A program made the translations under genes and the position numbers. Below are positions 1-9,585 of a stretch of 13,006 nt of DNA, in pieces. The notes beneath the pieces were generated by a model that saw only the letters and a list, made by a program, of their open reading frames with translations, searched no databases and was not told the origin of the DNA. Origin of the DNA: an uncultured Bacteroidales bacterium. Lineage in GTDB: Bacteria > Bacteroidota > Bacteroidia > Bacteroidales > UBA932. The stretch is taken from the NCBI GenBank assembly GCA_934702165.1, contig CAKUYG010000046.1, positions 1-13,006 on the forward strand, in the 5' to 3' direction. Within the stretch, counting starts at the first letter, position 1. Every line of letters begins with the position of its first letter.

Positions 1-3000
1 GGGTTATACCGTCCATCACAGGCATTACCACATCGCTTACGATGATGTCCGGAGCCTTATCGAAGGCTGCATCCAGAGCTTCTTTTCCGTTGGAGCACTG
101 GATGATATGGAAATCCCTGGATAGTTCCGAGGCGACGTAGCCACGCAGCTCATCATCGTCATCGACAAGCAGCAGACGGTACTTCGTGCGCGGTGACTCA
201 TGGGCGGATTCAGGGATCGTGATCGCCTCAGGCAGCACGGCAGCCGGAGACGGAGAGGTTGCCGGATCGGCCACAGTCTGTGACAGAGGCGAACATGCCA
301 CCTGGCTCTCAGGCACATGGCTCCTTCCGAGAGGGAGGGTCACTATGAAGCGGGCGCCCGGCGCATCCGGATTGTTCTCTGCATGGATCTCACCGGAATG
401 CAGTTCCACAAGAGAGCGTGCCAGATCCAGGCCGACACCTGTTCCGCCCTTGTACACAGCCTGACCAGACGAAGACTGGTAGAAACGCTTGAAAATGTTT
501 TCAAGCTCTCCTTCCGGTATCCCTATACCGTTGTCCATTACCGAAATGCGAGCATGTCTGGCGTCATCGGTCTTCTCAAGCAGTACTGTTACTTTCCCGT
601 TTGCGGGGGTGAATTTGAAGGCGTTGGAAAGGAGGTTCACAAAGACCTTGTCCAAATTGGACGGATCAAACCACATGTCCAGGCTGTCAATCCCCGGATG
701 CTCGAAAGAGAGCAGAATACCTTTCTGCGAGAACTGGCTTTCCATACCGTCCACTATGCCTCCGAGGAAAGAAACCATATCATTCTCGCTGAAAGAAAGC
801 TTCATGCCCCCCTTGTCAATTTTTCGTACGTCAAGCAGTTGGTTGATAAGCTGGAGCATTTTCTCGACATTGCGGTACATCAGCCTGTAATTGCGCTGAT
901 GTTCCGGATCGCCATCGCTGCTCATAAGTTTGCGCAAAGGGTTGACCACCATGGAGAGCGGATTCTTTAGTTCGTGCGATATGTTGACGAAGAACTGAAG
1001 TTTCGACTCGTTGATACGGTCGGCCATAGCATACTCCTTGAGTTTCTGCTGAGCACGCCAGTGGTTGAGAAGCCAGACATAAACCCCGACACATAGGCCG
1101 ACCAGCAGCAGGACATACATCACTTTGGCAAATCCGCTCGCCCAGAAAGATGGCCGTATGTCTATTGTAAGGGATATCGGATCCGACTCCAGAAAAGAAT
1201 CCCGGCATTTCAGGCTGAAATCATGCTTTCCGGCCGGCAGACTGCTGAAAGACAGGCGGTTCGTGCCCGCCGGCAGAGTCACCCAACCATGGTCATCCAT
1301 CTTGTACATGAATCGAAGACGGTCAGGATAATTGTGCTCCCTGGTGGAGAACAACAAGGTGAATGCGTTGTCTTTATAGGATAGATTAATCTTGTCAGCC
1401 TCCCAGATGGCCTTGTCCAGCACTTCCTTATCTCCAGACCTTGTGTCTGTAGTGACAGGGCTGTTGTGAAGGTACATGCCGGTGAGCCTTACGGTCCAGC
1501 GCTTGAGAGGGCTGACGATCTCACGAGGATAGAAACTTGTCAGCCCCCCGACTCCCCCGAACCACAGACGGAAGTCGCTGTCCTTCCAAGACGTGTTCTT
1601 GCTGAACTCATTTCCCTGGATCCCGTCTTCTGCAAGGAAATTGACTAAAACGCTATAATCAGGCCTCAAACGGCACAATCCGCTGCCGGTTCCGAGCCAG
1701 GTCATTCCGTCTTCATCCTGACGTACAGAATAGACAGTATCTGAAGGAAGACCTTCTTTTGTGGTGTAGTGCTCCGTCTGTCCGCTCTTTTTGAGGACAA
1801 TAAGTCCGTTGTCACAGCCAAAGGCGATATTTCCGTCATTCTGCTCGTTTACAGTATGCACTATATTGCCTTCGGAAATCATTTTCAAAGAAACACCGTC
1901 AGAGAAATCGATTACGCAAGCCCCATCATATGTCCCGAGATACAGACGGCCGTCCGTAGCAAAAACAAGGCTGGTTATATATAGAGGAATGTCACGACAA
2001 TATCTGGAAGCATCCGAAATCTCCCCGCTCCTGAGGTCATAGCACAGAAGGCCTGACCCCATGGTGGCGATCCACAACCTTTTCCCCTTGTCTTCCGCGA
2101 ATGCGGAGACATGCCTTGTCGCACGCCGGCGCAGTCCGCCGATGTCAAGCCGGCGATATTTCCCGCTGCTCCTGTCTACCACGCCGCAGCCTTTGTTGAA
2201 CGAAGAGACCCACAAATTGCCATCCGAGTCTTCGTACAGGCCGGTCACAGACACCGGGACGGAAGTCTCTGATTGGCCCGGGACGAAATGCTTCAGCCGG
2301 ATACCGTCCGATGATATGCCGTAGAGTCCGTCATTGTCAGTACCGACCCATAGTATCCCGTCACCTGTGCGGCACAAAGACACCACTGCACAAGAACCTA
2401 TTATGTCCCCGGTCTCTGACTGCGGCCCGTAGTATTTGAAATTGTTGCGTCTGAAAGGGATGAGATATACACCTTTCTGATAGACACCGACCCACAGGTT
2501 GCCGTTCTTGTCCCTCATTATGTCATGGACTTTCTTCCCGTCCAGTCCATAACGCCCGTCTGCAGTGACAAAGTCACAAAAACTGCCGTCCTCAGGATTG
2601 TAGACCTTTATGCCGGAACCGTCTGTTCCGACGAAAAGCCTATGCCTTGAGGACTGGGCGAGACACCGCGGCTCGAAAATGCTGTCACCATCGTAAGGCA
2701 CGGCTATGAAATCATCCTGCCTGCTGTCGTACTTCATCAGCCCGCCGTTGATTGATGCCGCATACAAGATGCCTTCATCGCTCTCAAACAAGCTCATCAC
2801 CGTGGCATCGCTGCCGGAAAGATAATCATGGACGCTGCCGTCACGGGCAATCCTCTGTATGCCGTGCTCGTGCTTTACTACCCATACGTCACTTTGCGAA
2901 CTCTCGAAAATGATATCAGCGTAGTTAACCACCGTCGGCAAGGAGCTCGGAGTCAGAGAAAGTACTCCGTCATTCACGTTGATGACCGACAATACCGCGC

Positions 3001-3421
3001 CTGCAGCTATCAGTTCCCCGTCTGATTTTTCGATAATGCGGGAGACCTGTCCGGTACCTGTGCCGTTCTCATAACGGGCAAGCGGGGAGAAACTGTCAGA
3101 ATCAGGGTGATAAAGTTGCACCCCAAGATGGCTTGCCACGAAAATCCGCCCCCTGCTGTCCTCAAATACCTGATTGACGTAATTGCTCGCCAGAGAGTTC
3201 TGATTGTCAGGATCGTGGAGATACTGGGTGAACTTGCTGCCGTCATAACGGTTCAAGCCGTCTTCGGTAGCTATCCAGACCATGGAGGAACTGTCTTCAA
3301 ATATCTGTTTGACCATGCTGCTGGTCAGCCCGTCGTCAGTGGAGAATATCTTATAGTCCTTCGCACCGCACATTATGGATACGGCAAAAGCGAAGAGAGC
3401 TGATGCTATCTTTAGTTTCAT
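1..3421 (-). CDS. Hybrid two-component system sensor kinase/response regulator (HTCS), 3' end beyond window
   Basis: One-protein signalling system of the inner membrane: a periplasmic ligand sensor fused to a histidine kinase and receiver, in this family normally followed by an AraC-type DNA-binding domain. I read 1140 codons without a stop from ATG 3421 to the left edge. Seen: signal peptide about 1-20; repeated two-bladed-propeller motifs such as VWIATEDGLNRYDG from about 22 to 640; Y_Y_Y-type beta-sandwich about 681-757; one membrane helix 767-787; H-box SHELKNP with His816; N-box NLLSNAFKFT (922-938); DNGIGIP (963-969); GGTGVGL (992-998); a Pro/Ser-rich linker about 1018-1080; receiver with acidic cluster D1087-D1090 and phospho-acceptor Asp1130 in SDVVMP. 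The rest of the receiver and any HTH_18 domain lie outside. HTCS proteins usually control glycan utilisation loci, but none is visible here. It is divergent from the GTPase gene with only 42 bp between. Confidence 0.95.
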   Translation of the reverse strand, partial: MKLKIASALFAFAVSIMCGAKDYKIFSTDDGLTSSMVKQIFEDSSSMVWIATEDGLNRYDGSKFTQYLHDPDNQNSLASNYVNQVFEDSRGRIFVASHLGVQLYHPDSDSFSPLARYENGTGTGQVSRIIEKSDGELIAAGAVLSVINVNDGVLSLTPSSLPTVVNYADIIFESSQSDVWVVKHEHGIQRIARDGSVHDYLSGSDATVMSLFESDEGILYAASINGGLMKYDSRQDDFIAVPYDGDSIFEPRCLAQSSRHRLFVGTDGSGIKVYNPEDGSFCDFVTADGRYGLDGKKVHDIMRDKNGNLWVGVYQKGVYLIPFRRNNFKYYGPQSETGDIIGSCAVVSLCRTGDGILWVGTDNDGLYGISSDGIRLKHFVPGQSETSVPVSVTGLYEDSDGNLWVSSFNKGCGVVDRSSGKYRRLDIGGLRRRATRHVSAFAEDKGKRLWIATMGSGLLCYDLRSGEISDASRYCRDIPLYITSLVFATDGRLYLGTYDGACVIDFSDGVSLKMISEGNIVHTVNEQNDGNIAFGCDNGLIVLKKSGQTEHYTTKEGLPSDTVYSVRQDEDGMTWLGTGSGLCRLRPDYSVLVNFLAEDGIQGNEFSKNTSWKDSDFRLWFGGVGGLTSFYPREIVSPLKRWTVRLTGMYLHNSPVTTDTRSGDKEVLDKAIWEADKINLSYKDNAFTLLFSTREHNYPDRLRFMYKMDDHGWVTLPAGTNRLSFSSLPAGKHDFSLKCRDSFLESDPISLTIDIRPSFWASGFAKVMYVLLLVGLCVGVYVWLLNHWRAQQKLKEYAMADRINESKLQFFVNISHELKNPLSMVVNPLRKLMSSDGDPEHQRNYRLMYRNVEKMLQLINQLLDVRKIDKGGMKLSFSENDMVSFLGGIVDGMESQFSQKGILLSFEHPGIDSLDMWFDPSNLDKVFVNLLSNAFKFTPANGKVTVLLEKTDDARHARISVMDNGIGIPEGELENIFKRFYQSSSGQAVYKGGTGVGLDLARSLVELHSGEIHAENNPDAPGARFIVTLPLGRSHVPESQVACSPLSQTVADPATSPSPAAVLPEAITIPESAHESPRTKYRLLLVDDDDELRGYVASELSRDFHIIQCSNGKEALDAAFDKAPDIIVSDVVMPVMDGIT

Positions 3422-3463
3422 TGTCAATAAACGTGGTTACAAGATGCTAATCTAAGAAGAAAA

Positions 3464-4654
3464 ATGCTATATTGCCACGATTTGAATATGAATATGGAAA
3501 ACAACATCAACGAAGTTCCGGTACTTCTGCTTACCGGTTACCTCGGGAGCGGCAAGACCACTCTCGTCAACCGCATCCTCTCAAACAGGAAAGGAATCAA
3601 GTTCGCCGTGATAGTAAACGACCTCGGAGAGGTCAACATAGACGCATCCCTGATAGAAAAGGGTGGAGTTGTAGGCAAAAAGGACGAGAGCCTTGTCGCC
3701 CTCCAGAACGGATGCATCTGCTGCACCCTGAAAATGGATCTTGTGGAACAGATCTGCCAGATCACTTCGACCGGCAAGTTCGACTACATAGTAATAGAGG
3801 CGAGCGGCATCTGCGAACCGGCGCCTATCGCACAGACCATCTGCTCCATACCAAACCTCACCCCGGAATATGTCCGCGGTGCCCTGCCAAGACTTGACTG
3901 CATCGTCACAGTGGTGGACGCTCTCAGGATGCAGACCGAGTTCAGCTGCGGAGACACTCTTCCGCTGCGCAATTTCGACGAGGACGATCTGGAAAGCCTT
4001 GTCATCCAACAGATAGAATTCTGCAATATTGTGATACTCAACAAGGTATCAGAAGTCAGCAGCGAAGATCTCGGGAGAGTCCGCAGCATCATCCACAAAC
4101 TCCAGCCGAAAGCTGAAATCATAGAGAGCAACTTCTGCGATATAGATCTGGACAAGATTCTGAACACGAAAATGTTCAATTTCGACAGCGTGGCTACGTC
4201 CGCATCCTGGATATCCGAGATAGAAGGTGACCCTCACGAAGCTTTGCACGACGAAGAGGAAGGAGAGGCCGAAGAATACGGGATATCGACATTCGTTTAT
4301 TTCCGCAGGGAACCGTTTGACATCAACCGCTTCGACGAATTCGTAGCCAAAAGGTGGCCGAAGTCTGTAATCAGGGCCAAAGGGGTATGCTACTTCACGG
4401 ATGATACGGACAAGTGCTACCTCTTCGAGCAGGCCGGTGTGCAAAAATCCCTCAAGGACGCAGGCCTGTGGTACGCTACCATGGAGAAGGAAGAACTTGC
4501 CGAGATGATGCTGCGAGACCCTTCGCTCGCCAGAGACTGGGACCAGAAGTGGGGGGACAGGATGGAGAAGATCGTCTTCATCGGACAGCACCTTGACAAA
4601 GAAGCCATCACCAAGGAGCTTGACAGCTGCCTTGATGATGGCGTGACACTATAA
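3464..4654 (+). CDS. COG0523/CobW-family metallochaperone GTPase
   Basis: Cytoplasmic G3E-family P-loop GTPase; relatives (CobW, ZigA/ZNG1, YeiR, YjiA, NHase activators) deliver metal ions, often Zn or Co, to client proteins. Seen: Walker A GYLGSGKT (25-32), NDLGEVNID (52-60), the metal-binding motif CICC (84-87), EASGICEP (112-119), a base-recognition motif NKVS (193-196), and a CobW C-terminal domain from about 272 to 385. The inter-domain linker (about 255-271) is strongly acidic with only two His, rather than the His-rich linker of many relatives. At 396 aa it is of normal length. ATG 3464 has an A-rich upstream typical of Bacteroidota; ATG 3488 or 3494 are possible alternatives. No Zur-type operator or TAnnTTTG promoter was recognised in the 42-bp upstream gap. 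It is convergent with the lipoprotein gene, 15 bp apart. The subfamily and the metal cannot be decided from sequence alone. Confidence 0.93.
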   Translation: MLYCHDLNMNMENNINEVPVLLLTGYLGSGKTTLVNRILSNRKGIKFAVIVNDLGEVNIDASLIEKGGVVGKKDESLVALQNGCICCTLKMDLVEQICQITSTGKFDYIVIEASGICEPAPIAQTICSIPNLTPEYVRGALPRLDCIVTVVDALRMQTEFSCGDTLPLRNFDEDDLESLVIQQIEFCNIVILNKVSEVSSEDLGRVRSIIHKLQPKAEIIESNFCDIDLDKILNTKMFNFDSVATSASWISEIEGDPHEALHDEEEGEAEEYGISTFVYFRREPFDINRFDEFVAKRWPKSVIRAKGVCYFTDDTDKCYLFEQAGVQKSLKDAGLWYATMEKEELAEMMLRDPSLARDWDQKWGDRMEKIVFIGQHLDKEAITKELDSCLDDGVTL

Positions 4655-6205: not shown

Positions 6206-8947
6206 CTATAAGGTATAAGTAATTTGCAGTCCTATGTTGCGTCCCGGGTTGTAGGCTCGGGTTATCTGTCCTATCTCACCCTCGAACTGCTTGTAGGTTA
6301 TCCCCTCTCCAAGCAGGTTGCGGAAGTAGAGTTTGAGGTCGAAGTTCTCGCCTATCTTCTTGGAAAGCGTAAGGTCGAGGCTGTTTCGAGGCATCTCGTA
6401 GCTGTCCGGCACCCTCGCCTGATCCTCCCCTCCTATCGCCCCCTCGGTGCGGCCTACACCGATAATCCTCTTTCCGATCCTGTTGTAGAGCAGGGCTACG
6501 TCAAGACCGAGGTTCTTGCTCGAATAGAAGAGCCCGCCGTTGATCAAGTACGGGGACTGGCCCTGCATCGGGCGGTCTTCCTCTTTGGAGCCTTCCTCGA
6601 AATGCACCTTGCTGTGGATCAAGGCTCCGTTGAAAGAGAGCGAGAGGTTCTCAAGTCCGATGAAGGCGAGACTCTTGCGGATGTCCATCTCCAATCCCAG
6701 ATTGTCGGCGCTCAAGGCGTTCATGTAGGAATATACAAGGTCAGTGCCCCCGGAGACGGTATAGGTCCACTCTATCGGAGAGTCGAAATGCTTGTAGAAA
6801 GCCGCTATGCTGACCGTCTCGCTGCTTGAAGGGTAGAGCTCGTATCTCAGGTCCACATTGTCTATGTAACAGTTGCGGAGGTCGGTGTTGCCCTGCACAT
6901 CCGAGGCGAGATCGAAGTCGTAGTATACCGAGGAGGACACTTCGCGGAACTCCGGCCTGTTGATGCTCCGCCCGTATGAAAGCCTGAGATTCTGCTTCTC
7001 ATCGATGCGGAATGTAGCCGTGGCTGACGGGAAAAGGCCACCGCCAGTGTAATGTCTGCTGCTCTCGGAGAGCTCGTGGTCGCGGGTGTTTGATATGAGT
7101 TCCATGTCATTGTACTCATAGCGCAAGCCGCCAAGAATCTCCAGTCGTCCAAGCGGCACGGAAGCGTTGATGTAGCCTGCCGCCAACCAGTTGGCTCCGC
7201 GATAATTGTTGCGCATGTGCGGCTCTTCGAGCAGGTGGAGCTTGTCTTCACCGAAATATTCCGGATTGCTCAGCAACTGCGGCACATCCATTTTCTGGAA
7301 ACCGGCAGGCAGGGTGTTGTTGTACACGTTCCAGTTGTATATGAATACCCTGGTGTTGTATTTGCGCCCGCGGTATTCCCCGTACACGCCGCCCTTCACA
7401 TAACCTTCCCGGTCTCCGATATGGAAGACCTGCTTGTCATTGACACTCAAGGATGTTATGCCCTCCCTGAGATCCGTCCATTCACGGGAGATGTCGTTGC
7501 CGGTGGTGAGAGCCATCACCCCGCTTTCCAAGGCGTCGTTGACCAGATAACGTCTGCGGTCCGGAACGATCCTGTCCGCATAGGAGAAGCCGGTGCACCA
7601 GTCAAGGGTGTTGTCTCCCATATAGTGAGTACCTGTAATCTGGCCGTTGTAGGTCGTACGGCTGCGGTAGAAGTATTCAGCGCTCTTCTCCTCATTGGCC
7701 TGCGCGCTGATGCCGTCACGGAAAGTGTAGCGGTGGTTGTCTATACGGTTGAATATGTTTTTGAACTGGAACTTGGCCACGCCCGAAGGGATGATCCAGG
7801 TCATGTTGAGCATGGCACCGAAACGGCTGTTGTCATTGTACTGGCTGTCAACCGAATGGCGCAGATAGTTGGAACGGTTGTTCTGGTGGTCATAGACTCC
7901 GAAGAGGTTGTTCTGCATAGGGTCTAGGGTGCGGAACTCCTGCGACCAGTTCGCAGCCGCGCTGAGGCCGACCTGATGTCCGCCAATATCCCAACGCCTT
8001 GATAGCGAGGCAGAGAGTTTGCGGTCGCTGATCGGGTTGATCTTTTTGACTGACCAGTCATTGTCAAGCCCGTTGGCCTTCAGGTCCACAGTCTTGTTTC
8101 CGAAGCCCCGAAGCGAAGCGCCTATACCGTCAGGAAGCGAGCCGAGATGACTGTTGTAGGAAATGAAATCATTGTAAGAACGGTCGTTGAAGTTGCCTCC
8201 TGCCGAGATGTTGAAAGAGTTGCGCTCCGGCACGTCCCGAGTCTGTATGAGGATGAATCCGCCTGAATAGTCCGCCGGATACTCGGCCGAGAGGACTTTC
8301 ACGATGGTCAGGTTGTCTATCTGCGAACTCGGGATGAGGTCGAACGAGAAGGCCCTCGAATCGGCCTCGGAACTCGGGGCAGCGCCGCCATTGATCCACA
8401 CGTTGTTGTATCTCTGGGAGAGGCCGCGCACCATGACGAACTTGTCATCGATTAGGCTGATGCCAGGCACGCGCCTTATCACCTCCCCGGCGTTGGAGTC
8501 CTGTGTACGTCCTATCTCCTGGGCGGAGACATTGCTTATTATAAGAGGTGTCTCACGGGTTATCCTCATAAGCGATGCCTGGGTGTTGCGGCGCTGTTCG
8601 GCAGTCACCGTAGTGGCTGAAAGCATCTGGTCATCGGATGACATCTCTACTGTCACGCCCTCCGAGGGGCTCTTCACATTCTCGAGAAGAGCATCTATGT
8701 ATCCGAGATAACTCACTTTAAGACTGACCGTACCGGCGGGCACTCCCGTGAGGGAGAAAGTCCCGTCCAGATTGGTTATGGCTTTGGCGTTGCCGCCGAC
8801 AACCTCCACGAACGCCCCGATGAGCGTCTCTCCGCTCTGCGCATCCTTGACGATGCCGCTTACTGTGCCTGTCTTCGGCTGGGCTGCCAGAATCTGTGCG
8901 AAAACCGCTAAAACCAGAACTGCAAATCCTCTCTTTGATCTTTTCAT
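6206..8947 (-). CDS. TonB-dependent outer-membrane receptor with CarboxypepD_reg domain
   Basis: Energy-coupled outer-membrane importer, 913 aa from ATG 8947. An in-frame GTG at 8959 would add four residues (MKDT), but the ATG starts directly with a canonical signal peptide (MKRSKRGFAVL..., cleavage near A22/Q23). Domains: carboxypeptidase-regulatory-like beta-sandwich about 26-103 (VSGIVKDAQSGETLIGAFVEV, 29-49); TonB-box-like segment ATTVTAEQRR (111-120); plug about 128-240 with GEVIRRVPGI, MVRGLSQRYNNVWING and YSGGFILIQT; then a 22-strand-type barrel ending in the aromatic/hydrophobic GLQITYTL. There is no N-terminal FecR-signalling (STN) extension, and it does not look like SusC. It is first gene of an operon with the beta-helix lipoprotein and is preceded by its own promoter and Pho-box-like repeats. 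The cargo cannot be told from sequence; phosphate-containing compounds are an inference from the promoter, and a metal or siderophore is the alternative. Confidence 0.95.
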   Translation of the reverse strand: MKRSKRGFAVLVLAVFAQILAAQPKTGTVSGIVKDAQSGETLIGAFVEVVGGNAKAITNLDGTFSLTGVPAGTVSLKVSYLGYIDALLENVKSPSEGVTVEMSSDDQMLSATTVTAEQRRNTQASLMRITRETPLIISNVSAQEIGRTQDSNAGEVIRRVPGISLIDDKFVMVRGLSQRYNNVWINGGAAPSSEADSRAFSFDLIPSSQIDNLTIVKVLSAEYPADYSGGFILIQTRDVPERNSFNISAGGNFNDRSYNDFISYNSHLGSLPDGIGASLRGFGNKTVDLKANGLDNDWSVKKINPISDRKLSASLSRRWDIGGHQVGLSAAANWSQEFRTLDPMQNNLFGVYDHQNNRSNYLRHSVDSQYNDNSRFGAMLNMTWIIPSGVAKFQFKNIFNRIDNHRYTFRDGISAQANEEKSAEYFYRSRTTYNGQITGTHYMGDNTLDWCTGFSYADRIVPDRRRYLVNDALESGVMALTTGNDISREWTDLREGITSLSVNDKQVFHIGDREGYVKGGVYGEYRGRKYNTRVFIYNWNVYNNTLPAGFQKMDVPQLLSNPEYFGEDKLHLLEEPHMRNNYRGANWLAAGYINASVPLGRLEILGGLRYEYNDMELISNTRDHELSESSRHYTGGGLFPSATATFRIDEKQNLRLSYGRSINRPEFREVSSSVYYDFDLASDVQGNTDLRNCYIDNVDLRYELYPSSSETVSIAAFYKHFDSPIEWTYTVSGGTDLVYSYMNALSADNLGLEMDIRKSLAFIGLENLSLSFNGALIHSKVHFEEGSKEEDRPMQGQSPYLINGGLFYSSKNLGLDVALLYNRIGKRIIGVGRTEGAIGGEDQARVPDSYEMPRNSLDLTLSKKIGENFDLKLYFRNLLGEGITYKQFEGEIGQITRAYNPGRNIGLQITYTL

Positions 8948-8973: not shown

Positions 8974-8981
8974 CAAAAGTA
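8974..8981 (-). promoter_or_regulatory. -7 element of TonB-receptor operon promoter
   Basis: On the minus strand this reads TACTTTTG, a full match to the Bacteroidota -7 consensus TAnnTTTG. It would start transcription around 8969, giving a leader of about 22 nt before ATG 8947. No TTTG -33 box lies at the usual 19-21 bp distance; that space is taken by the direct repeats at 8991-9028, as expected for an activator-dependent promoter. Confidence 0.6.
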
Positions 8982-8990
8982 AAGAGAGGA

Positions 8991-9028
8991 TGTTACGAGG
9001 ATATTACCTCGTATTAAGTTTATGTTAC
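8991..9028 (-). promoter_or_regulatory. Four phased direct repeats resembling a Pho box, upstream of TonB-receptor operon
   Basis: On the minus strand, reading toward the gene, four hexamers follow one another: GTAACA (9023-9028), TTAATA (9012-9017), GTAATA (9002-9007) and GTAACA (8991-8996). Their start-to-start spacings are 11, 10 and 11 bp, so all face the same side of the helix. The two proximal 11-mers, GGTAATATCCT and CGTAACATCCT, agree at 9 of 11 positions. The last repeat ends 9 bp before the TA of the -7 element, replacing a -33 box. This geometry matches binding of OmpR/PhoB-family dimers (E. coli pho box, 11-bp half-sites about 10 bp from -10; B. subtilis PhoP repeats of TTAACA type). 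Which regulator binds is inference. Confidence 0.5.
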
Positions 9029-9035
9029 AAGAGGG

Positions 9036-9497
9036 CTATTTGAGTTTGCGGTTCTTGTAGGACTCAATGCATGCCGGGATGATGCGCTTATACTCGGTGC
9101 TGGAGAAGAGCGGTGAAGTGATGATGAAATCCGCCGTGCTCCGGTTGGTCGCAAACGGTATATTATATAGGGAAGCCAGACGGACAAGCCCCATGACGTC
9201 ATTCTGATGCCCCTGCATTATAAGATTGTCGCAGAAGAAGACAAGCATGTCTATCGCCCCCTCGGCAATCATCGCTCCGATCTCAAAGTCGCCGCCGAGA
9301 GGGCCGCTGAGTTTGCAGATCACGTCCAGCTGCGCGTCCTCATCCAAAGCTGCGGTGAGAGTCTCCCTGACAAGACGGCCGGTCGTCCCGGTACAATAGA
9401 GCCGGCAGTCCTTTAGAACCCTCGCGTTGAATTTAACCCAGCTCATAAGTTCCGCCTTGCGGGAATCGTGAGCGACCAATGCTATATTTTTGACCAT
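9036..9497 (-). CDS. mgsA: Methylglyoxal synthase
   Basis: Cytoplasmic lyase converting dihydroxyacetone phosphate to methylglyoxal and inorganic phosphate, a bypass of lower glycolysis that relieves sugar-phosphate stress. The 153-aa protein is collinear with E. coli MgsA (152 aa). Seen: VAHDSRKAELMSWV with H10, D11 and K14; the phosphate-binding CTGTTG (35-40); SGPLGGD with the catalytic Asp at D70 (E. coli D71); HQND with H97 and D100 (E. coli H98 and D101); then IPFATNRSTADFII. The frame is open up to 9584, but that longer version would run through the sHSP terminator and lacks homology, so ATG 9497 is chosen. The gene sits 88 bp upstream of the TonB-receptor start on the same strand and downstream of the sHSP gene. 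E. coli MgsA is allosterically inhibited by phosphate; whether this one is has not been shown. Confidence 0.96.
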   Translation of the reverse strand: MVKNIALVAHDSRKAELMSWVKFNARVLKDCRLYCTGTTGRLVRETLTAALDEDAQLDVICKLSGPLGGDFEIGAMIAEGAIDMLVFFCDNLIMQGHQNDVMGLVRLASLYNIPFATNRSTADFIITSPLFSSTEYKRIIPACIESYKNRKLK

Positions 9498-9513
9498 AAT
9501 ATGTGATTTTGGG

Positions 9514-9521
9514 CGAAGATA
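9514..9521 (-). promoter_or_regulatory. Possible weak -7 element for mgsA
   Basis: The minus strand reads TATCTTCG, one mismatch from TAnnTTTG, and would give a leader of about a dozen nucleotides before ATG 9497. No -33 TTTG is found at the right spacing; that place is taken by the terminator hairpin. Read-through from the sHSP gene is an alternative source of mgsA transcript. Confidence 0.3.
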
Positions 9522-9534
9522 AGCATTATTTACG

Positions 9535-9558
9535 AAAAAAGCCGCAACGCCTTGCGGC
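9535..9558 (-). terminator. Rho-independent terminator after the small heat-shock gene
   Basis: On the minus strand a perfect 7-bp GC-rich stem, GCCGCAA with TTGCGGC around a 4-nt loop (9541-9558), is followed directly by six T (9540-9535). It lies 28 bp after the sHSP stop codon and ends about 38 bp before the mgsA start, so it separates the two transcription units. A second small hairpin, GAAG-CAAAA-CTTC, lies between the stop codon and this stem. Confidence 0.9.
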
Positions 9559-9585
9559 GCCGCGGCTCTGAAGTTTTGCTTCAAG

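Follow-up and report, generated by a model that had tools for sequence, protein, structure and literature searches.

A receptor operon preceded by a phased repeat array

The window that we analysed (the whole stretch of DNA, 13,006 nucleotides, or 13 kb) contains on its minus strand a two-gene operon for a TonB-dependent receptor and a probable surface lipoprotein, with an array of four short direct repeats and a -7 promoter element upstream of the receptor gene. The features are as follows (offsets are counted from the start of the -7 element; bit scores and consensus registers are those of the weight matrix and the orthologue promoters described below):

9023..9028, minus strand: repeat unit 4 (distal), GTAACA, at -47 (consensus register 48), 10.1 bits
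9012..9017, minus strand: repeat unit 3, TTAATA, at -36 (consensus register 37), 5.3 bits
9002..9007, minus strand: repeat unit 2, GTAATA, at -26, exact consensus register, 6.3 bits
8991..8996, minus strand: repeat unit 1 (promoter-proximal), GTAACA, at -15, exact consensus register, 8.9 bits
8974..8981, minus strand: -7 element TACTTTTG, a perfect TAnnTTTG, read from the sequence and serving as the anchor of the orthologue alignment
6206..8947, minus strand: TonB-dependent receptor, 913 amino acids from the ATG at 8947; PF13715, PF07715, PF00593, PF14905
4670..6181, minus strand: probable beta-helix surface lipoprotein, 503 amino acids, second gene of the operon

The receptor combines carboxypeptidase-regulatory-like, plug and barrel domains; against TIGR01782 it reaches 211.3 of 310 bits, which is below the cut-off. 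The lipoprotein has no Pfam match in the library that we searched; PF28492 is the Pfam accession found on its relatives, and its Cys22 is invariant in 22 aligned sequences. The AlphaFold model of the lipoprotein is strand-rich (mean pLDDT 79.2; two of the five models are poor), and a Foldseek comparison with the PDB listed 50 matches, which we take to be mostly right-handed beta-helices (enzymes and tailspikes). Bearing in mind that the TM-scores of these listed matches are no higher than 0.35, and that none has E ≤ 0.001, we regard a beta-helix fold for the modelled protein as likely rather than proven.

Three other genes lie near the operon. The methylglyoxal synthase ORF (9036-9584, minus strand) is separated from repeat unit 4 by 7 bases. 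Methylglyoxal synthase is linked to phosphate levels in E. coli; this ORF has no relatives in the 80 receptor loci considered below, so its adjacency to the array looks unconserved. Convergent with the lipoprotein gene is a gene for a CobW/ZigA-like GTPase (3464-4654, plus strand; 356.6 of 600 bits against NF038288), possibly a metal metallochaperone and, as far as we can see, unrelated to the array. A hybrid two-component protein (2-3427, minus strand), with propeller, HisKA, HATPase and receiver domains, runs off the edge of the window; hybrid two-component systems are typical of Bacteroidetes nutrient loci. No phosphate gene adjoins the operon in the window itself.

The array occupies part of the 88 bp of intergenic DNA that separate the methylglyoxal synthase ORF, which ends at 9036, from the ATG of the receptor (8947). 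A preliminary description of this DNA had reported four hexamers on the minus strand, repeated every 10-11 bp and ending 9 bp before a perfect TAnnTTTG that has no -33 box. Its coordinates are right, and the sequence agrees with the remainder: the units (KTAAYA) follow each other at spacings of 11, 10 and 11 bp, the gap from unit 1 to TACTTTTG is 9 bp, and by inspection there is neither TTG nor TTTG 17-23 bp upstream of that element. KTAAYA occurs six times on the minus strand of the window, and four of these occurrences belong to the array; neither strand of the 13 kb contains another chain of three or more such units at 10-12 bp. The consistency score of the four units was reached by 0/300 dinucleotide shuffles of the 88-bp intergenic region.

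The array is conserved and locked in register with the -7 element

A scan of genome contigs by receptor alignment gave 265 confirmed places, and the best 80 of these 265 were taken as loci; among these 80, the closest receptor is 67% identical to that of the window and the rest are 50-62% identical. Upstream regions were taken from 76 of the 80 loci (at L040, L055, L056 and L080 the matched segment lacks a start), and anchoring on a -7 box was possible in 72 of the 76. In the 72 anchored promoters, GTAAY peaks at -70, -59, -48, -37, -26 and -15 from the start of the -7 element, an exact 11-bp period. A GTAA-like word stands at these six offsets in 46, 43, 60, 47, 62 and 71 of the 72 promoters, respectively, and at any other offset in no more than 11. 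When a unit is counted wherever at least three of the four letters of GTAA are present, 15 promoters have six units, 21 have five, 29 have four, four have three and three have two; that is, 65/72 have at least four units, and 36/72 have five or six. The column frequencies reach 94% for G at -15 and 100% for A at -12, and the bases that separate the last unit from the -7 element are hardly conserved.

Against this background, the two proximal units of the window (-26 and -15) are in exact register, and the two distal ones (-47 and -36) are one base out of it. Since the relatives keep a period of 11 and often have five or six units, the lone step of 10 bp and the total of four units are traits of the window copy. 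In the closest relative (locus L001), the four units keep strictly to 11-bp steps, and two of them are one letter off KTAAYA. At a strict cut-off, no nearer relative was found among 101 genomes of its genus, and a plasmid collection returned three records, in all of which the matches fall inside the methylglyoxal synthase part of the query.

The orthologue promoters also bear on a different operator that might be read from this DNA. The window has a perfect 5-6-5 inverted repeat, CGAGG-TAATAT-CCTCG (8996-9011), that could in principle be the true site of a palindrome-binding dimeric repressor or activator. An inverted repeat of this kind is found between -37 and -10 in 0/72 orthologue promoters, in which the direct repeats are conserved instead; we therefore reject the palindromic operator, to which we give almost no credence.

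A loose IUPAC pattern, scanned through six genomes, produced a signal that in five of them was not separable from a reversed control, and for this reason a weight matrix was used in its place. The matrix describes an 8-position unit derived from the 72 orthologue promoters, with the window excluded; the scores of four units are summed, and steps of 10 or 12 bp are penalised. With this matrix, which had not been trained on the window, the window array scores 28.0 bits, and the whole window holds no second array (the next-best site has 8.4 bits). The maximum was 19.0 bits in 200 shuffles of the whole window, 21.1 bits in 5000 shuffles of the intergenic region, and 22.2 bits in a simulated 2-Mb strand. 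All of the intergenic and whole-window shuffles score below the observed site, and a chance origin of the array is thereby rejected.

The repeats had been expected to recur upstream of orthologous receptor operons, and they do: 74 of the 75 upstream regions scored (that of L001 was too short and was left out) reach at least 16 bits on the strand of the gene, versus 3/75 on the opposite strand, and at 20 bits or more the counts are 56/75 and 0/75; several of these loci come from near-identical sister species, so that the counts overstate independence. When the matrix was trained on 31 loci, 39/42 held-out loci were recovered at 16 bits (2/42 on the other strand), and the window scored 26.9 bits. 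Among 119 genomes from the family to which the closest relative belongs, 37 have a receptor match. A more independent set was formed by 29 distant receptor loci taken from these besides that of the closest relative; their receptors are 39-45% identical to that of the window, and none of the 29 entered the training of the matrix. An array of at least 16 bits lies upstream in 23/29. In the 22 of the 29 promoters that could be anchored, a GTAA-like word is at -15 in 22/22, and at -26, -37, -48, -59 and -70 in 13, 16, 18, 7 and 10, with 0-5 at other offsets.

The array recurs at phosphate genes of related genomes

Another key observation concerns the genes that accompany the operon elsewhere. A relative of the lipoprotein is present in 74/80 receptor loci, and the fetched flank of 20/80 includes a phosphate gene (PiT in 11, polyphosphate kinase in 9, a porin in 5, PhoB in 5); at L063, the genes for PhoB, a kinase-like ORF, receptor, lipoprotein, porin and PiT stand in a row. 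In 8/29 of the distant relatives, phoB and the receptor gene diverge from a common intergenic region, which holds the array; all eight of these PhoB proteins pass the cut-off of the Bacteroides PhoB model NF053854. Further arrays of at least 19 bits within the receptor loci precede genes for PiT (PF01384), Porin_O_P (PF07396), polyphosphate kinase and PhoB, and also genes for a leucine-rich-repeat protein and a glycosyltransferase (gene identity was checked for one or two examples per class).

The last two classes, and one additional receptor, are worth recording in their own right. The leucine-rich-repeat gene is of the BspA type (PF13306) and has an array in three loci (L055:10210-10926, L056:10559 and L069:11841-12527); its relatives occur in 5/80 loci, four of which also have polyphosphate kinase. 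The glycosyltransferase gene lies downstream of the receptor operon at L065, L075 and L078 (two Muribaculaceae and one other Bacteroidales MAG), with the array 152-250 bp upstream, and its product possibly takes part in lipid remodelling in phosphate shortage. In genome G012, a second TonB-dependent receptor (PF13715, PF07715; L193:1665-3028) has a 24.5-bit array 132 bp upstream and is a further candidate phosphorus receptor.

The DNA around PhoU-domain matches, which are present in 20/20 genomes, was also analysed. In the six genomes with a stand-alone PhoU, arrays of 17.0-27.7 bits are found on the coding strand at 6/6 pst/phoU loci, 17-246 bp before pstS, pstC or phoU. At one of these pst loci (L115), a stronger match (21.1 bits) faces another gene on the opposite strand, and the match on the pstS side has 17.0 bits; at L116, the identity of PstS and PstC was confirmed by NCBIfam. 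PhoB-like regulators from 12 genomes were tested against NF053854: the best candidate is above the cut-off in 11/12 genomes, and a second copy (L174) also passes. In the resulting set of 13 phoB genes (the best candidate of each of the 12 genomes plus L174), an array of at least 15 bits is within 300 bp upstream of nine, and none was found within that distance for the other four. Among 16 other OmpR-family regulators of the same genomes, from which the hybrid kinase L184 was excluded, the array precedes none; one reaches 13.8 bits, and the control locus L187 has no match of 15 bits anywhere. The possibility raised in the preliminary description, that pst and pho promoters carry the same repeats, is thus realised in related genomes, at 6/6 pst/phoU loci and 9/13 phoB genes.

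The register of these promoters resembles that upstream of the receptor. From 37 candidate promoters of phosphate genes, 31 could be anchored, a few of them on a later TTTG than the likely -7. A GTAA-like word is at -15 in 21/31, which is not an unbiased rate because most of the 37 were chosen for having an array (four regulator genes with no array within 300 bp are included, and some array-bearing genes, namely glycosyltransferases and sister-species copies, are left out); the words at -26, -37 and -48 number 19, 21 and 17, and those at other offsets 0-7.

The PhoU-domain Na/Pi transporters form a separate group. Array-like matches occur at 9/14 of their loci (L117-L130) and overlap the start of the divergent thrS gene; we set them aside as ambiguous, since coding constraint on thrS is possible. 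At these nine loci (L120 and L123-L130), a TATTTTTG-like box lies upstream of the repeats at the divergent transporter/thrS start, an arrangement that would fit repression. The available part of a report on B. fragilis records a 101-fold drop at low phosphate for the Na-dependent phosphate transporter BF4351 (PMC3547664).

The same evidence bears on the identity of the regulator. It is conceivable that another member of the OmpR family (for example one that is RprY- or ArcA-like) acts on the array and has a regulon that overlaps only partly with the phosphate genes. Direct-repeat geometry is often common to the sites of OmpR-family proteins. Moreover, a DAP-seq analysis of R. anatipestifer PhoP, in the sections accessible to us, describes 583 peaks upstream of 764 genes and a motif, with TTTAACA as its most conserved bases, that is highly similar to that of ArcA (PMC9603813). 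On the other hand, the array distinguishes PhoB genes (9/13) from those of other OmpR-family regulators (0/16), it tracks pst, PiT, porin and polyphosphate kinase genes, and, according to the accessible text of the B. fragilis study, PhoB of that species (BF1576) binds the pstC promoter in vitro in a gel shift (PMC3547664). We consider a different OmpR-family regulator improbable.

Our preferred interpretation is that the repeats constitute a Bacteroidales Pho box, bound by PhoB and induced at low phosphate, that drives the TonB receptor/beta-helix lipoprotein operon; judged from the sequence patterns described above, we hold this to be highly likely. The architecture of a promoter activated by an OmpR-family protein of the PhoB type, predicted at the outset, fits the 11-bp repeats and their position where a -33 box would otherwise stand. 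The placing of the importer in a phosphate-starvation regulon, predicted likewise, gains from the presence of the same array at pst/phoU, phoB, PiT, porin and polyphosphate kinase genes. Because its array matches the Pho box that precedes phosphate-uptake genes of its relatives, the importer is very likely to be induced when phosphate is limiting.

Array sites in the genome of the closest relative

The closest relative, whose receptor is the one that is 67% identical to that of the window, is a MAG of a Bacteroidia bacterium (G001). In this genome, the IUPAC pattern has six matches in four places, versus three matches for the reversed pattern. Two of the four places are the receptor promoter and a PiT (PF01384) promoter, and both have the identical 9-bp gap to the -7 box. 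The weight matrix was scanned over 1.63 Mb (L221-L333) of about 2.3 Mb and found only three sites of at least 18 bits, the best of which is the PiT promoter, at 24.2 bits; the receptor promoter, which is on a separate piece, has 18.5 bits. Two sites (21.3 and 19.4 bits) outscore the receptor promoter and have no phosphate gene adjoining: one is just after a valyl-tRNA-synthetase-like ORF, and the other is without a clear target gene. By eye, neither has a -7 box, and we regard both as background. The PhoB-like regulator of G001 scores 264.3 bits, just below the NF053854 cut-off of 270, and the weight matrix found no array before its gene; both results speak against the Pho-box interpretation.

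These counts also help to assess whether the phased AT-rich steps could be a constitutive promoter element, either UP-like or made of curved DNA, that acts with no regulator. The units are indeed AT-rich and in helical phase. However, conservation extends to particular G, T and C positions, and the array is strand-specific (3/75 on the opposite strand). Furthermore, three sites of at least 18 bits in 1.63 Mb of G001 are too few for a general promoter element. We find an unregulated element of this type barely credible.

Relation to known Pho systems

The Pho-box layout is recognisable here: tandem direct repeats of about 11 bp, all on one strand, at the -33 position and at a fixed distance from the -7 element. 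In E. coli, about 10 bp separate the Pho box from the downstream promoter element, and the B. subtilis PhoP box consists of four-fold TTAACA-like direct repeats at about 11 bp. The preliminary description had likened the units of the window to the B. subtilis repeats; this is fair for single units, which look alike, but the phylum and the sigma factor differ, and the element is better described by a consensus of its own, TGTAAY(A), with an 11-bp period and a lock to the -7 element. It is GTAAY together with the fixed 9-bp gap that defines the array here.

In general, Pho boxes have been described as two 11-nt direct repeats of a sequence that varies by species (CTGTCAT in E. coli), and PhoB-type regulators as binding head-to-tail on such 11-nt repeats and contacting the sigma subunit (PMC4415409, in the portion available). 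The E. coli system is similar in its 11-nt tandem direct repeats, in its OmpR-family regulator and in having pst among its classic members. It differs in the sequence of the unit, since the window and its relatives have TGTAAY(A) and the E. coli type was not found in them, and in the number of units, which is two per box in that description as compared with four to six in most orthologous promoters here. The E. coli promoter has, in addition, a sigma-70 -10 element, in contrast to the lock on the Bacteroidetes -7 TAnnTTTG.

The B. fragilis PhoB regulon belongs to the same order and is under the same regulator as we propose. Its PhoB-dependent genes include those for Pst, polyphosphate kinase and phosphatases; the words 'motif', 'consensus' and 'binding site' are absent from the text of that study, the available part of which states no box sequence, and the receptor/lipoprotein pair does not appear in its table of representative genes (PMC3547664). 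R. anatipestifer PhoP is likewise a Bacteroidetes response regulator, but the paper treats it in connection with pathogenicity and redox; neither 'pst' nor 'direct repeat' appears in the accessible text, which describes no fixed -7 register (PMC9603813). For marine bacteria, Pho boxes at plcP clusters have been predicted bioinformatically, with no sequence or phyla stated in the part of the report at hand (PMC4796936). In the open-access papers that we searched, we recognised no Pho-box sequence for Bacteroidales.

The receptor/lipoprotein pair itself has counterparts in phosphate-responsive systems. In F. johnsoniae, the PhoBR operon includes a TonB-dependent receptor (Fjoh_0545; pf07715, pf13715, pf14905) and lipoprotein FII (Fjoh_0546; pectin-lyase fold, IPR011050), with values on phosphate depletion of 8.02 and 9.91, which we take as log2 fold changes; an OprP beside phoBR is not induced (-1.3) (PMC8115612, in the sections available). 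The likeness to the pair in the window lies in the Pfam domains of the receptor and in the pectin-lyase-fold lipoprotein, and it is drawn from published descriptions; those sections mention neither a Pho box nor a promoter. In Caulobacter, ElpS (cc0170) is a phosphate-starvation lipoprotein encoded beside a TonB receptor and described as conserved in organisms that include gut Bacteroides; the receptor, cc0171, is reported to be constitutive (PMC2996285, as far as the accessible text extends). The layout of an ElpS/FII-type pair is present in the window, namely a TonB receptor and an adjoining lipoprotein gene, for which the beta-helix fold is only indicated.

A proposed mechanism and its implications

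We hypothesize that, when phosphate is scarce, phosphorylated PhoB (the OmpR-family regulator of the PhoRB system) would bind head-to-tail on successive 11-bp units and hence along one face of the DNA. The fixed 9-bp gap and the nearly free sequence of the spacer suggest that the protein bound at the last unit stands where a -33 element would be and meets RNA polymerase at a fixed angle: PhoB bound to the proximal unit, 9 bp upstream of TAnnTTTG, would replace the absent -33 box and recruit RNA polymerase with the primary sigma factor, and the receptor/lipoprotein operon would be turned on. One-base shifts of the distal units, as seen in the window, would matter less.

The receptor operon would then belong to one regulon with the pst or PiT transporters, phoB, phosphate-selective porins and polyphosphate kinase. 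Its receptor and surface lipoprotein most likely capture and import a phosphorus source at the cell surface, and a natural guess for this cargo, by analogy with the company that the pair keeps in the Flavobacterium work, is an organic or polymeric source of phosphorus.

More broadly, we think it probable, at somewhat lower confidence than for the operon itself, that Bacteroidales read a phosphate regulon from a previously undescribed Pho box. This box would consist of up to six TGTAAY(A) units with an 11-bp period, the last of them 9 bp from the -7 element; up to three stacked PhoB dimers would replace the -33 element, and the receptor pair would be a core member of the regulon across Bacteroidales. 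The comparisons between genomes support this extension of the element, first seen as four repeats in a single promoter, to a putative Pho box of up to six units that is common to Bacteroidales phosphate genes.

The outcome is a description of the probable PhoB operator at the sequence level, precise enough to be used in genome scans, for an order with a prominent place in the human gut. In this setting PhoB was already known to be important, and the open-access papers searched yielded no box sequence that we recognised. The locked spacing to the -7 element also offers a clean system in which an OmpR-family activator would work with the divergent Bacteroidetes sigma factor and no -33 element. 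Finally, a widespread orphan receptor/lipoprotein pair would move from 'unknown nutrient' to 'phosphorus acquisition', and by this reassignment the substrate of the pair becomes testable.
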